Assembly: GCA_022843405.1 (NCBI GenBank)
Contig: JALHNQ010000031.1
Span: forward strand, 5,905-39,645
Reading direction: 5' to 3'
From: Methylocystis sp.
GTDB taxonomy: Bacteria; Pseudomonadota; Alphaproteobacteria; Rhizobiales; Beijerinckiaceae
Length of the DNA: 33,741 bases
Positions within the stretch are counted from its first letter, which is position 1. Every line of letters begins with the position of its first letter. Position numbers and translations under genes: made by a program. Under the pieces are notes generated by a model. That model searched no databases and had not been told where the DNA came from. It was given only the letters and a program-made list of their open reading frames with translations. Positions 17,404 through 20,734 of the stretch are shown here, one piece after another.

Positions 17404-17712
17404 TTAGCCCTCGATCGCGGTGATTTTCACAAGCGTCAGGTCCTGACGATGACCGCGCTTGCGCTTTGAATTCTGCCGCCGACGCTTTTTGAAAGCGATC
17501 GACTTGGCGCTGCGCGTCTGCTCGGCGATCTCGCCCGACACTTTCGCGCCAGCCACCGTCGGCGCGCCAATCCTGGGGCTGTCGCCGCCGAGCATCAGCA
17601 CTTCGTCGAAAGTGACGGCGTCGCCCGGCGCGCCGTCGAGCGCCATGACGGTGATCACGTCCCCGGCGGCGACGCTATATTGCTTGCCGCCTGTTTTGAT
17701 GACTGCGAACAT
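17404..17712 (-). CDS. rplU: 50S ribosomal protein L21
   Basis: The 102-residue protein matches L21: [18 protein letters not shown] at the start, then [10 protein letters not shown] and the basic C-terminal [16 protein letters not shown] segment that binds 23S rRNA. It is the first gene of rplU-rpmA-GNAT-obgE. A promoter with a perfect -35 box lies about 140-165 bp upstream and two hairpins, one with a T-run, stand in the leader, which suggests attenuation. A transposable element sits immediately beyond the promoter. Confidence 0.98.
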
Positions 17713-17810
17713 CTTTTTGTCCTGTGTTCGTTCCGGCTCTGGCGTTTCCGCCGGCCGGCTTCTTGGCAGTTGATTTTATTTCGCTTCGATATTGCGCAAA
17801 GGCGCAAATG

Positions 17811-17833
17811 AAAAACGCGGCGAAACCGCCGCG
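17811..17833 (-). terminator. Intrinsic-terminator-like hairpin in the rplU leader
   Basis: On the minus strand CGCGGCG (17833-17827), loop GTTT, CGCCGCG (17822-17816) is followed by TTTTT (17815-17811): a textbook intrinsic terminator. It lies downstream of the apparent rplU promoter and about 100 bp before the ATG. A second small stem, TTGCGC/GCGCAA (17807-17792), follows and could take part in an alternative fold. Confidence 0.6.
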
Positions 17834-17847
17834 CCGAAGCGGAGAAC

Positions 17848-17876
17848 ATCTACTCTTGAAAGGCGGCGGCTGTCAA
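17848..17876 (-). promoter_or_regulatory. Candidate promoter of rplU-rpmA-GNAT-obgE
   Basis: On the minus strand TTGACA (17876-17871) is followed after exactly 17 nt by GTAGAT (17853-17848). The perfect -35 and ideal spacing are convincing; the -10 is fair. The target duplication of the neighbouring insertion element begins only 8 bp upstream, at 17884. Confidence 0.6.
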
Positions 17877-17883
17877 ATTGTCG

Positions 17884-17891
17884 GCGGCGCG
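17884..17891. repeat. Target-site duplication, left copy
   Basis: GCGGCGCG directly precedes the left terminal inverted repeat and is repeated exactly at 20727-20734 beyond the right end. Eight base pairs fits the IS1 and IS1595 families and indicates a transpositional insertion. Confidence 0.85.
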
Positions 17892-17910
17892 GGTAGTGTC
17901 TCAGTTTGAA
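17892..17910 (+). repeat. Left terminal inverted repeat of the element
   Basis: GGTAGTGTCTCAGTTTGAA matches the right end (20708-20726, inverted) at 19 of 19 positions. A further partial match, ATTTC, follows on both sides with one base shift. Confidence 0.9.
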
Positions 17911-18788
17911 ATTTCTTCGAGCGTCCTTTTATAAGGACCGCGCTTCTTGGCCGGCTGGTCCGCGTCCATCGCGTCGACAATCTGCTCCCAAGTCACGATC
18001 GTATCGGATAGGCCAGCGGCCATCGCAGGCGTCACGCGCAGCGTCTTATGGATGCGCAGGAAATTATACCAAACCGCATAGATCGCGACCATGTGCGCGT
18101 GGTTTTCGAATTTCTTCGAAAAGGCATTCGTGAGCCTCGTAAAGCGCCGGTTCGCCATGCGCATCGTCAGATTGGAGCGCTCGACGTAGCTTGTCGAAAT
18201 GTGCTTTTCGTCCGGTTTGCCTTCGATCTTCGTTTTCTTGATCCCTGTGCATTCGGCGGGGCTGTAGCGGCCTTTGAAGAATTCCGGCGCGTTGCCATAG
18301 AGCTTCACGAGCATGGCGTAATCAACGTCAGCTCCGAACGCGCCTTCAACGGCTTCAAGGTAGGACTTATGGCCGTCGCTCGTAAGCTGAATGCGCGTGA
18401 TCACTCGAGACGCTACATCGTCCATAAACCACTTGGCGCACTCGCCATCGCGACCGCCGCAGAAATGCGAAATGAGAAGCTTGGTGTCGGCTTCGATCGC
18501 CGTCCAAGTCCAAACGTCGCCGGCGCCGTCTGGAGCGGCCTTGGCGCTTGGGACGTTCTTTTCTTTGGCGTAGCAGAACGCCCACGCCTCATCGACTTGG
18601 ACGCGCTTGGCGGCGACGCCGCGCACCTTGGCGTCATGAAATCCCGCGCAGAAGCGGCCTGCGTCAACAAGGAGCTTCGACACGGTATTGATGCTCGTAT
18701 TCGTGAGGCGCGAGACCGAACGCATCGAAGCGCCTTCGCAGAGCATGGCGAGGATTTGGGCGCGCGTTTTCGTGTCGAGCTTGTTCAT
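17901..18788 (-). CDS. IS1-like DDE transposase
   Basis: The 295-residue transposase starts at the ATG at 18788 (MNKLDTKTRAQIL); upstream in-frame sequence looks non-coding. A helix-turn-helix lies at about 10-42 (ILAMLCEGASMRSVSRLT..INTVSKLL). The catalytic acids appear as Asp66 (QVDEAW), Asp138 (TSDGHKSY) and Glu203 (SYVERSN), with the IS1-type tail RRFTRLTNAFSKK..HAHMVAIYAVWYNFLRIHKTL. Proteins of this kind are named IS1-family in alphaproteobacteria as I recall; IS1595 is the alternative because of the 8-bp duplication. It looks intact, with no frameshift or internal stop. It is transcribed toward the left end, divergent from the passenger genes. Confidence 0.9.
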   Translation of the reverse strand: MNKLDTKTRAQILAMLCEGASMRSVSRLTNTSINTVSKLLVDAGRFCAGFHDAKVRGVAAKRVQVDEAWAFCYAKEKNVPSAKAAPDGAGDVWTWTAIEADTKLLISHFCGGRDGECAKWFMDDVASRVITRIQLTSDGHKSYLEAVEGAFGADVDYAMLVKLYGNAPEFFKGRYSPAECTGIKKTKIEGKPDEKHISTSYVERSNLTMRMANRRFTRLTNAFSKKFENHAHMVAIYAVWYNFLRIHKTLRVTPAMAAGLSDTIVTWEQIVDAMDADQPAKKRGPYKRTLEEISN

Positions 18789-18808
18789 GGCGCGACTATA
18801 TGAACTTT

Positions 18809-18828
18809 TATGCTTACCATCAAGCATA
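18809..18828. promoter_or_regulatory. Inverted repeat between transposase and toxin genes (candidate operator)
   Basis: TATGCTT (18809-18815) and AAGCATA (18822-18828) form a perfect 7-bp inverted repeat with a 6-bp spacer, in the control region shared by the divergent transposase and toxin-antitoxin genes. This geometry suits a dimeric HTH protein such as the XRE antitoxin downstream. That pairing is inference. Confidence 0.4.
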
Positions 18829-18931
18829 TGAGATGTTATTGCATTGGGGCAGACATTCTTCGTATGGTTGTGGCCGATATGCGACAGTTTTCCGCGCTGT
18901 TGCCTCTTGCTATTAACTTTTGTTGACTTAA

Positions 18932-19426
18932 ATGGCAACACCGATAGAGTTGGATCGAACTGGCGCGCTGTTCAAGCTTGACGCGCTGGACCAAGCTATT
19001 CAGGAGTTTCGGCAATTCTATGCATCTCCCCAACTTCACAAATGGATCAACGATGTGCTGCCGACGCTTAGTTCCTCTTGGAATCTCGAACTCGCACCGC
19101 TCGAACAATTTGTTGATCTCATGGAAACATTTTGCGCCGGCGAGCGGCTCATGTATGGGCTGCAATTCAAGCCGTTGGTGCATATAACGGATGGCATATG
19201 GGAGCTCAAAACAGCGGATGTTCGAATCTTCGGATGGTTCCAAAAGAAGGACTGTTTCATCGGCGCGGTTGCCGACGACGCAACAAGGATCAAAAAAATC
19301 GACCTATATCGCGGTTACGCGAATGTCACGACGAAAGGCTTCCTGGAAGCACTTGATTTAGATGACCCGAAATACGTTCCCGGAGACGATCCCCATGCCG
19401 TCGTTTCAAATTTCGATTACTCCTAG
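18932..19426 (+). CDS. RelE/HigB-like toxin candidate (passenger gene)
   Basis: The 164-residue product has a helical N-terminal part (1-90) and a C-terminal part resembling RelE/HigB or phage Gp49-like ribonuclease toxins: GIWELKTADVRIFGWF at about 87-102, then FIGAVADDATRIKK. In that family a W-E-L-(R/K) strand followed by R-(I/V)-(F/L) is typical; Arg97 and the downstream Lys/Arg cluster would be the active or RNA-binding residues. It is longer than most RelE proteins. The next gene encodes an XRE protein overlapping it by 32 bp, the HigBA order of toxin first. The ATG at 18932 has no good Shine-Dalgarno, so a leaderless message or later start is possible. Confidence 0.7.
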   Translation: MATPIELDRTGALFKLDALDQAIQEFRQFYASPQLHKWINDVLPTLSSSWNLELAPLEQFVDLMETFCAGERLMYGLQFKPLVHITDGIWELKTADVRIFGWFQKKDCFIGAVADDATRIKKIDLYRGYANVTTKGFLEALDLDDPKYVPGDDPHAVVSNFDYS

Positions 19427-19775
19427 TCGTCGCGTAGCTGCCCGATTTGTCTCGGGCGTGCGGCGCGCTCTTTTGAAGGCGCTGGAGGAAGAAAACAAGA
19501 AGAGCGGCCTTAAGCAGGCAGACCTTGCGCGCGCCATTAAGGTCCACCGCTCTATCATTAATCGTGAGCTGCGCGGCCAGAAGGACATGACGCTAGGCCG
19601 CGTTGCAGAGCTATGTTGGGCTTTGGGCCGTGTTCCGACTTTTAGCCTCCCCGAAGCCAAAAATGGCAACGGGTCAAATTTGCCGCCGCCGAAAAGTATC
19701 GATCTTTCCGCCGTGCCCAATACGGCAACCACAGACCATCTTAGCGTGCTGGTGTTCGAAAATGCTCCAGTTTAG
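19395..19775 (+). CDS. XRE-family antitoxin/regulator candidate (passenger gene)
   Basis: From the ATG at 19395 the product has 126 residues. A lambda-repressor-like helix-turn-helix fills about 34-75 (LKQADLARAIKVHRSIINRELRG..MTLGRVAELCWALG). The tail is Pro/Asn-rich and probably flexible. It overlaps the toxin-like gene by 32 bp and is overlapped by the following gene by 14 bp, so all three are translationally coupled. In HigBA-like pairs the XRE protein neutralises the toxin and represses the operon; here this is inferred from context. Some XRE domains of this type could also regulate transposition. Confidence 0.78.
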   Translation: MPSFQISITPSRRVAARFVSGVRRALLKALEEENKKSGLKQADLARAIKVHRSIINRELRGQKDMTLGRVAELCWALGRVPTFSLPEAKNGNGSNLPPPKSIDLSAVPNTATTDHLSVLVFENAPV

Positions 19776-20190
19776 TATTAAAGCTGCTGTTCTTTGCGAT
19801 GAAGTCCGACAGGAAATTAACGGCAAGCATATTCTTATCGGCGCGTATAATGGCGCTGTTATTGTGCCAGATTTCCCAGCAAACATTCAGGTTTCTTGGT
19901 GGATTCAGTTGTTTCCTAAAGAAATTGGAAAATTTCATTTAGATATTCAGATCATAAAGGACGGAAAAGATACATTGGTAAAAGCGGCCATTGGATATGA
20001 GGTGCACGCCAAAGATTGGGCATCCTTGGTTCTTCCGAAAATTCCCATGCAGATTCATGGACCAGGAAAATTTGAGCTACAAATGAAGGATCAGAAGGAA
20101 GAGGAATGGTCGGTGGTTCACTCCTTCGAGGTCCGAAAAGGTGACGTCACGGTTGGTATACCGCCCACGAAACGTAGGGCGGTCACCTAG
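19762..20190 (+). CDS. DUF6941-like protein of unknown function (third passenger gene)
   Basis: The 142-residue product opens MLQFSIKAAVLCDEVRQE, then NGKHILIGAYNGAVIVPDFP. This resembles the DUF6941 pattern of a beta-sandwich domain that starts with a statement like .LCD..R.E.NGK..LIG.Y; I am not certain of that name. It is rich in alternating hydrophobic strands and has no signal peptide or membrane segment. The AT-rich codon use differs from the host genes. It overlaps the XRE gene by 14 bp, so it belongs to the toxin-antitoxin transcript, which is unusual for a two-component module. Its stop codon overlaps that of the convergent next gene in a CTAG. Confidence 0.65.
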   Translation: MLQFSIKAAVLCDEVRQEINGKHILIGAYNGAVIVPDFPANIQVSWWIQLFPKEIGKFHLDIQIIKDGKDTLVKAAIGYEVHAKDWASLVLPKIPMQIHGPGKFELQMKDQKEEEWSVVHSFEVRKGDVTVGIPPTKRRAVT

Positions 20191-20423
20191 CTCTTTTTCC
20201 ATCTGCCCCGCGCAGCTTTTTTCGCGATCTCTGATCGTTGTTCCGGCGTCATGCTTTCGGCGCGTTTCTTTCCGCCCTTGCGGCCTAGCTCGGCGGCAGC
20301 TTGGTTCTTGGCTGGCGCGTTGCCGTAATCCTCCGGCTCTTCGCCAGTGAGGATGCGCATTACCTTCACGGCGCGGGCTATGGCGTCTGCGGGGCGCTTT
20401 TCGCCTTTAGGTCCGGTCGGCAT
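20187..20423 (-). CDS. Small basic KGG-like protein (passenger gene)
   Basis: This 78-residue protein starts MPTGPKGEKRPADAIARAVKVM and ends with AAAELGRKGGKKRAESMTPEQ..IAKKAARGRWKKS. The LGRKGGKKRA..MTPEQR..IAKKAA pattern is common in small stress- or RNA/DNA-associated bacterial proteins related to the KGG repeat type; the function is unknown. The ATG at 20423 is chosen because the conserved start is MPTGPKGEKRP and it overlaps the upstream gene by 17 bp, as in a coupled pair. It is convergent with the DUF6941-like gene with a 4-bp overlap of stop codons. Confidence 0.7.
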   Translation of the reverse strand: MPTGPKGEKRPADAIARAVKVMRILTGEEPEDYGNAPAKNQAAAELGRKGGKKRAESMTPEQRSEIAKKAARGRWKKS

Positions 20424-20631
20424 TTTCAGCACACTCCGGATATATCCTAATAGACGTATAGCCGGTCTCCCTGCCAATAAGATCATCGAGATCGCGGGAG
20501 AATTCGTCTAGGGCTTCATTGTCTGTCGAGGAGATGTCCGTCCAGACGTGAAGAACCCATTGGTCTCCAGCCTCAATATACAATTTCGCAGTCTTCACAT
20601 GAGGCCGATTTAGTTCAATGTCTCGGTGCAT
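20407..20631 (-). CDS. Small acidic protein of unknown function (passenger gene)
   Basis: This 74-residue protein is not recognised. It has an alternating-strand middle (AKLYIEAGDQWVLHVWTDI) and an acidic helix (NEALDEFSRDLDDLIG). A strong GGAGG lies 6 nt before the ATG at 20631. It overlaps the following KGG-like gene by 17 bp, so the two form an operon inside the mobile element. The acidic protein paired with a very basic partner suggests, but does not prove, that they bind each other. Confidence 0.65.
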   Translation of the reverse strand: MHRDIELNRPHVKTAKLYIEAGDQWVLHVWTDISSTDNEALDEFSRDLDDLIGRETGYTSIRIYPECAENADRT

Positions 20632-20707
20632 GCCGCCCTCCGCTGCTTTGCGCTTAGCATATCACGGGATAAGGACACGGCGTGAGCGCGCGTCAAGGGC
20701 CTCGAAA

Positions 20708-20734
20708 TTCAAACTGAGACACTACCGCGGCGCG
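20708..20734 (-). repeat. Right terminal inverted repeat and right target duplication
   Basis: 20708-20726 is the inverted copy of GGTAGTGTCTCAGTTTGAA; 20727-20734 is the second copy of GCGGCGCG. Confidence 0.9.

Follow-up and report, generated by a model that had tools for sequence, protein, structure and literature searches.

The window analysed here is a 33,741-nucleotide stretch of contig JALHNQ010000031.1 from Methylocystis sp., and its positions 17892-20726 hold a complete 2.8 kb element resembling the insertion sequence (IS) family IS1, comprising terminal inverted repeats, a target duplication, a DDE transposase and five further open reading frames (ORFs). The terminal arms, located at 17892-17913 on the transposase side (plus strand, with ends of this kind also in relatives) and at 20705-20726 on the transposase-distal side (minus strand), are 22 nt long and 95% complementary (21/22), the outer 19 nt pairing perfectly; shuffling 4.6 kb of sequence 20 times never produced a perfect inverted pair of 19 bp. 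An identical 8-bp duplication, GCGGCGCG, is read directly from the sequence on both sides of the element, its unstranded left and right copies occupying 17884-17891 and 20727-20734. The first-pass annotation had described a complete, mobile IS1-like element with 19-bp perfect ends, an identical 8-bp duplication, an intact DDE transposase and a dense cargo of overlapping genes. These features are borne out, with the five ORFs overlapping as described and the ends extending to 22-bp arms with one mismatch. All four relatives aligned over both flanks show the empty site; their spacer is unlike the window's in length, three of them having 23-25 additional bp. The left flank is matched in 38 of 39 genus genomes, the own genome counted and one of the matches being trivial, and a search of the own genome with the whole element gave a single match. 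An origin of the two ends from separate elements is rejected, since relatives have paired ends too and close kin show the empty site.

The transposase gene lies on the minus strand and reads toward the left end of the window. Its start is most likely residue 52 (position 18788) of the longer ORF 17901-18941, giving a 295-aa protein encoded at 17901-18788, since this residue is methionine in 60 of 63 elements; these 63, the window's own and 62 related ones, underlie the core and cargo comparisons. The catalytic triad D117, D189 and E254, in the numbering of the 346-aa ORF, is conserved in 63, 62 and 62 of the 63, respectively. Matches are confined to IS1/IS6-type transposase models, with NCBIfam NF033558 (IS1) at E 1.3e-14 and 54.7 bits (curated cut-off 100 bits) and Pfam PF03400 at E 5.2e-05 and 24.0 bits (curated cut-off 24.1). 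As both curated cut-offs are unreached, 'IS1-like' is the safe term; close plasmid homologues carry the annotation 'IS1 family transposase'. A Tn3 or Tn7 remnant is ruled out by this restriction to IS1/IS6-type models and by the lack of any significant recombinase match, the other ORFs of the element yielding just one, insignificant, recombinase match (E 0.068).

Three cargo genes on the plus strand overlap one another and are oriented away from the transposase. Gene 1 (18932-19426) encodes a 164-aa putative toxin, gene 2 (19395-19775, starting at 19395 or 19362) an Xre-type helix-turn-helix (HTH) protein, a putative antitoxin or repressor with Pfam matches below the cut-offs and a PHROG match at E 6.1e-09, and gene 3 (19762-20190) a 142-aa DUF6941 protein (PF22091, 41.1 bits, cutoff 27). 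The first two, small overlapping genes of which one encodes an HTH protein, display the layout of type II toxin-antitoxin (TA) systems, supporting the earlier proposal of a TA-like module aboard the element. The toxin identity of gene 1 is putative, being taken solely from its place in the operon and its HTH partner: Pfam, PHROG and PADLOC gave no match and NCBIfam insignificant ones, its profile has negligible similarity to a Gp49-type toxin, and no relative was found among viral contigs. Against PADLOC, the window's cargo gives weak HTH matches only, the best at 3.3e-05 to a candidate model, and no known anti-phage system. The same operon order occurs in three other elements (L037, L044 and L056), the third gene of L056 being a sequence relative under the DUF6941 threshold. 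Beyond the lineage, seven plasmid records carry the operon's first gene, of which four were inspected; two were without annotation. The toxin/HTH gene order is kept on two annotated plasmids, the operon adjoins curli genes on Bosea and Rhizobium plasmids, and the four inspected stretches contain neither transposase nor ends. The first-pass annotation is corrected here too, in that the operon exists on plasmids outside the element.

On the minus strand at 20187-20423, its stop overlapping that of cargo gene 3, lies a gene for a 78-aa, small and basic protein with a motif like GRKGGKARA...EIAKKAAxxRW, hereafter the KGG protein. A KGG ORF is present in 59 of the 63 elements, in 56 as a separate small ORF, and pairwise KGG identities track transposase identities (r 0.44, with none of 2000 permutations as high). 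Among 199 family genomes, 24 KGG matches reach E < 1e-20, of which 19 lie beside a transposase and five beside an element end, the latter at contig breaks or remnants and one of these ends having three mismatches. As strong matches almost always adjoin element ends or the transposase, the KGG gene is regarded as a hallmark of the lineage and not as a passenger, and a picked-up host gene is ruled out on the same grounds. Weaker matches in the family sample, 11 of 25 inspected, have an end nearby in seven cases, and in a 385-genome class sample 31 of 35 inspected matches have a left end or transposase, compared with a left end in 1 of 700 shuffled windows. The five ORFs of the first-pass annotation exist, but the description of all five as passengers does not hold, 20187-20423 being a core gene. 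The fifth, a 74-aa ORF on the minus strand at 20407-20631, overlaps the start of the core gene, occupies a variable left slot and has no convincing family match. The KGG protein itself shows no recombinase match, and its profile found no useful match among PDB sequences. The stop codons of the KGG gene and of cargo gene 3, which runs toward it, share the 4 bp at 20187-20190; an overlap of the same size is seen in 18 of the 36 elements with a convergent arrangement, across various cargo types. Five elements (L034, L053, L078, L084 and L115) carry large P63C-domain cargo proteins with an N-terminal KGG motif, resembling a core-cargo fusion.

When ends were paired with the duplication ignored, 65 of 108 distinct loci gave a pair at 17/22 or better. 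An exact 8-bp duplication flanks 59 of these 65, and the duplication-bearing elements measure between about 2.1 and 4.0 kb. Insertions that are independent and flanked by 8-bp duplications, which the first reading had named, for copies with the same five genes, as support for a mobile cassette, are found, while the transposase-only copies that would have marked the cargo as optional are missing: no bare transposase copy occurs among the delineated relatives, though the search would have allowed it, and for this reason cargo looks standard in the lineage. Three of the 63 compared elements lack an exact duplication, L065 having 7/8 and L078 and L141 being admitted on ends alone. Duplicate loci L111, L113, L117 and L129 were dropped before the counts, and L002-L031 were replaced by wider stretches. 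One short end pair of 1.35 kb (L096), without a duplication or the usual end sequence, is probably due to chance. Several unusual copies were also noted. L158:4581-5092 (512 bp) has both ends and part of a KGG gene, lacks transposase and target duplication, and is a possible non-autonomous derivative. L159:4519-6221, a 1.7-kb copy with both ends, contains a P63C-like reading frame that itself bears a KGG motif; its transposase is reduced to a remnant, and its flanks have 7 bp in common. L132 and L133, whose ends read GGTAGTGTCCTAATTTGA, form a related sub-lineage with cargo of the GmrSD and Schlafen types and a common 99-aa ORF near the left end; clustering gave no KGG ORF for these two.

DNA comparison of 17 pairs resolves the elements into conserved blocks separated by variable slots. 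The blocks comprise the left end (the transposase-distal one), usually extending to about 75-110, the beginning of the KGG gene, the transposase together with a few dozen preceding bp, and the right end. Between them, pairs with different cargo show little or no similarity, even at a block identity of 90-95% (L050/L056 and L058/L091); in L050/L056, blocks 93-95% identical accompany unrelated cargo. Cargo differs in 12 of 17 pairs whose transposases are at least 85% identical, and ten cargo classes placed on a transposase tree (a quick method, 46 classified rows) require 27 changes, with a least possible number of 9 and a shuffled mean of 32.2. The idea that the same five genes travel as one cassette has to be abandoned: close relatives keep the ends, the core gene and the transposase and carry other cargo, which rules out a single fixed cassette.

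The slots are, by sequence comparison, rich in TA and anti-phage types relative to flanking genes. Such genes, counted by sequence cluster, occur in 28 of the 63 elements, or 32 if the window's operon type is included; the 28 comprise RmrA type (9), PD-Lambda-2 type (9), Panacea (3), Fic (2) and single carriers of HicB, GmrSD, Schlafen, AbiEii and Gp49-Xre, with AbiEii and Gp49 below curated cut-offs. Among 118 slot proteins, Pfam (best 25 of 44 families) assigns HTH_3 to 21, Peptidase_M78/ImmA to 16, HigB-like toxin, SDH protease, P63C and AAA_22 to five each, Panacea and DUF6941 to three each, Fic to two, and GmrSD, Schlafen AlbA_2 and HicB to one each. PADLOC finds RmrA models in 9-10 (best 4.9e-183) and PD-Lambda-2_B in 10. 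RmrA (RosmerTA) corresponds to the Xre-ImmA cluster C4, placed at the element in 6/6 carriers checked by position, and PD-Lambda-2_B to a second, three-gene cluster (C5), likewise in 6/6. In the control of 77 proteins taken from outside the ends, no Pfam family exceeds two members, and the 12 PADLOC families found have a single member each; this control consists of ORFs picked by script at loci L034-L104, one or two per locus and not all verified genes, which lowers its hit rate and may lower that of the cargo set likewise. Cargo alignment A3 leaves out ORFs shorter than 85 aa, one KGG ORF (L098) and one L124 ORF, and in the cargo set the window's two script-picked ORFs are replaced by its three cargo genes.

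Many members' core additionally contains two copies of one palindrome. In the window, TGCTT-N6-AAGCA at 18811-18826 (unstranded), just before the transposase and overlapping a -35-like hexamer, and a second copy with one change, TGCTAAGCGCAAAGCA, at 20644-20659 (unstranded) near the left end, where a promoter is seen by eye only, are both putative operators. Across 62 elements, one without a labelled transposase ORF being left out, the palindrome is present at 9/10 or better on the left in 23 and on the transposase side in 28, compared with 0.6% of 1240 control windows drawn from within slots and with 0.5-1.4% of shuffles, and its spacing agrees in 14 of 15 elements with both copies. Since the palindromes recur with unrelated cargo, the pattern suggests that they are read by one core-encoded regulator, either the KGG protein or the transposase.

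These observations are best explained, in our view with good probability, by a compact cargo-carrying IS1-like transposon in which a fixed core is combined with exchangeable slots rich in TA and anti-phage genes; to the core belong the ends, left-end DNA over about 75-110 bp, the KGG gene, and the DDE transposase plus a short upstream stretch. The transposase would act at the ends, producing insertion with an 8-bp duplication, and the palindromes may be bound by the KGG protein, or else by the HTH of the transposase itself, a binding that would hold the core promoters down. Where two elements meet in one cell, homologous recombination within the conserved islands could exchange the slots, and the cargo, here the putative toxin/HTH antitoxin/DUF6941 operon, would aid persistence through addiction or phage protection of the host. 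A bolder version is tentative and appreciably more doubtful, namely a previously undescribed two-gene transposition system in which the IS1-like transposase has, throughout the lineage, the KGG protein as DNA-binding partner. This partner would act on the twin palindromes at either side of the cargo, and the system would be a standing delivery vehicle for anti-phage and addiction modules that can replace one another, some, such as the toxin/HTH/DUF6941 operon, yet undescribed.

Several findings weigh against the cargo-carrying transposon with a fixed core and exchangeable slots. Cargo without a recognised TA or defence match is carried by 35 of the 63 elements, the window's type (4) included, and the putative toxin has neither a family match nor a solved-structure relative in a PDB sequence search. 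Cargo clusters on the tree slightly beyond chance, 27 changes or fewer occurring in 2 of 200 shuffles, chiefly because PD-Lambda-2-type carriers group together. At the level of 9/10 or better, only 15 of 62 elements have the palindrome in both positions, 47 lack it in one or both, and 26 have it in neither; it is absent from all nine PD-Lambda-2-type carriers, and a promoter scan gave no more sites than chance (2 vs 2.1). KGG matches lacking a nearby end account for 4 of the 11 weaker family matches inspected (25 in all), and those with neither end nor transposase for 4 of 35 in the class sample. The 512-bp copy L158 has no duplication, and most relatives come from metagenome-assembled genomes (MAGs), some possibly mis-binned.

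An ordinary transporter IS that captured a neighbouring operon by chance, with carriage not systematic, would also place IS-like ends and a transposase around genes unrelated to transposition, as observed here; IS ends enclosing unrelated passenger genes define this known class in passages of PMC9330008, PMC7986276 and PMC3129680, and the window's operon also exists outside the element. This explanation is already weakened and rather unlikely, however, given the lack of bare copies among delineated relatives, a cargo biased toward TA and defence types compared with flanking genes, and one extra gene, KGG, common to nearly all elements. Regulation of the transposase by the cargo HTH protein instead of a core protein, whereby a divergent cargo operon would silence the transposase gene and couple transposition to the TA state, fits the divergence of the window's operon and transposase gene over 143 bp and the first script-picked slot gene facing away from the transposase in 36 of 56 elements. 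The recurrence of the palindromes alongside unrelated cargo, among it the SDH-protease and AAA types that give no HTH match (L035 and L040), makes this account less probable still. Dedicated site-specific exchange, with the KGG protein acting on the paired palindromes in cassette fashion, appears highly improbable. In five compared pairs the left block ends at 83-87, roughly where the left palindrome stops, and the transposase-side block often starts near the other palindrome, yet in other pairs the left block extends to 75 or 110, breaks also fall about 20-54 bp before the transposase start and, in close pairs, inside the KGG gene, one or both palindromes are absent in many elements, and the KGG protein is without a recombinase match.

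The element is best filed as an IS1-like transporter IS with a distinctive fixed-core, variable-slot architecture. IS1 elements typically have inverted ends of about 20 bp and duplications of 8-9 bp, both of which the window's element displays, and a size below 1 kb, compared with about 2-4 kb here. The likeness to IS1 lies in the IS1-related DDE transposase, ends starting with GGT and the 8-bp duplication; the differences are a transposase under both curated cut-offs, the extra core gene and the cargo slots. The nearest IS1 members are presumably of the single-ORF kind such as the ISMhu11 group; the literature search found no paper on ISMhu11. Transporter IS elements differ from the present lineage in its common accessory gene, recurrent palindrome and systematic cargo exchange over the whole lineage. 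Sections of PMC7157771 describe Tn3 transposons as carrying TA genes of several kinds in one family, through several acquisitions, with a transposase of about 1,000 aa, a resolvase and TA pairs abutting the res site, whereas here no resolvase is seen and the operon sits between the KGG gene and the transposase. Tn7-like transposons, whose cargo is enriched in defence and TA genes, ImmA being the most frequent TA row in part of a cargo table (PMC8649781, in part), use a different transposase set, unlike the single transposase, size of about 2-4 kb and mostly one to three cargo genes found here. RosmerTA, with its RmrA models (treated in part of PMC10440598), and PD-Lambda-2 (PADLOC model) are carried by other elements of the lineage, and the window's own operon matches neither. 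No description of the lineage or its KGG gene was found in a literature search that took in few subscription papers and not ISfinder.

If the preferred reading of a fixed core with exchangeable slots is correct, very small elements carry single TA or anti-phage modules from one bacterium to another, and undescribed modules may be sought in the slot that separates the KGG gene from the transposase. It also raises the questions of what role the conserved KGG protein plays and how near-identical elements swap cargo so quickly. Transposase matches at E 1e-10 or better occur in 42 of 199 family genomes and at no fewer than 79 loci in the species-genome collection, those listed being, by title, mostly from Pseudomonadota and also from MAGs labelled Nitrospirota, Acidobacteria, Actinomycetota, Chloroflexi and Bacteroidetes. 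Matches at this level are also present in 15 of 72,556 plasmid records and in one of 50,697 phage records, the latter at 31% identity.

In the own genome, three further end-like sequences with 2-3 mismatches (C1:47258, C4:66311 and C32:37398), whose surroundings show no clear KGG gene or transposase, are possibly solo ends or chance occurrences. The element's neighbours in the window are rplU/rpmA-like genes, recognised by eye, on one side and an unnamed gene on the other. The element lies about 180 bp upstream of the rplU-like (L21) gene (window 17712-17892), where it may cut the operon off from an upstream promoter.

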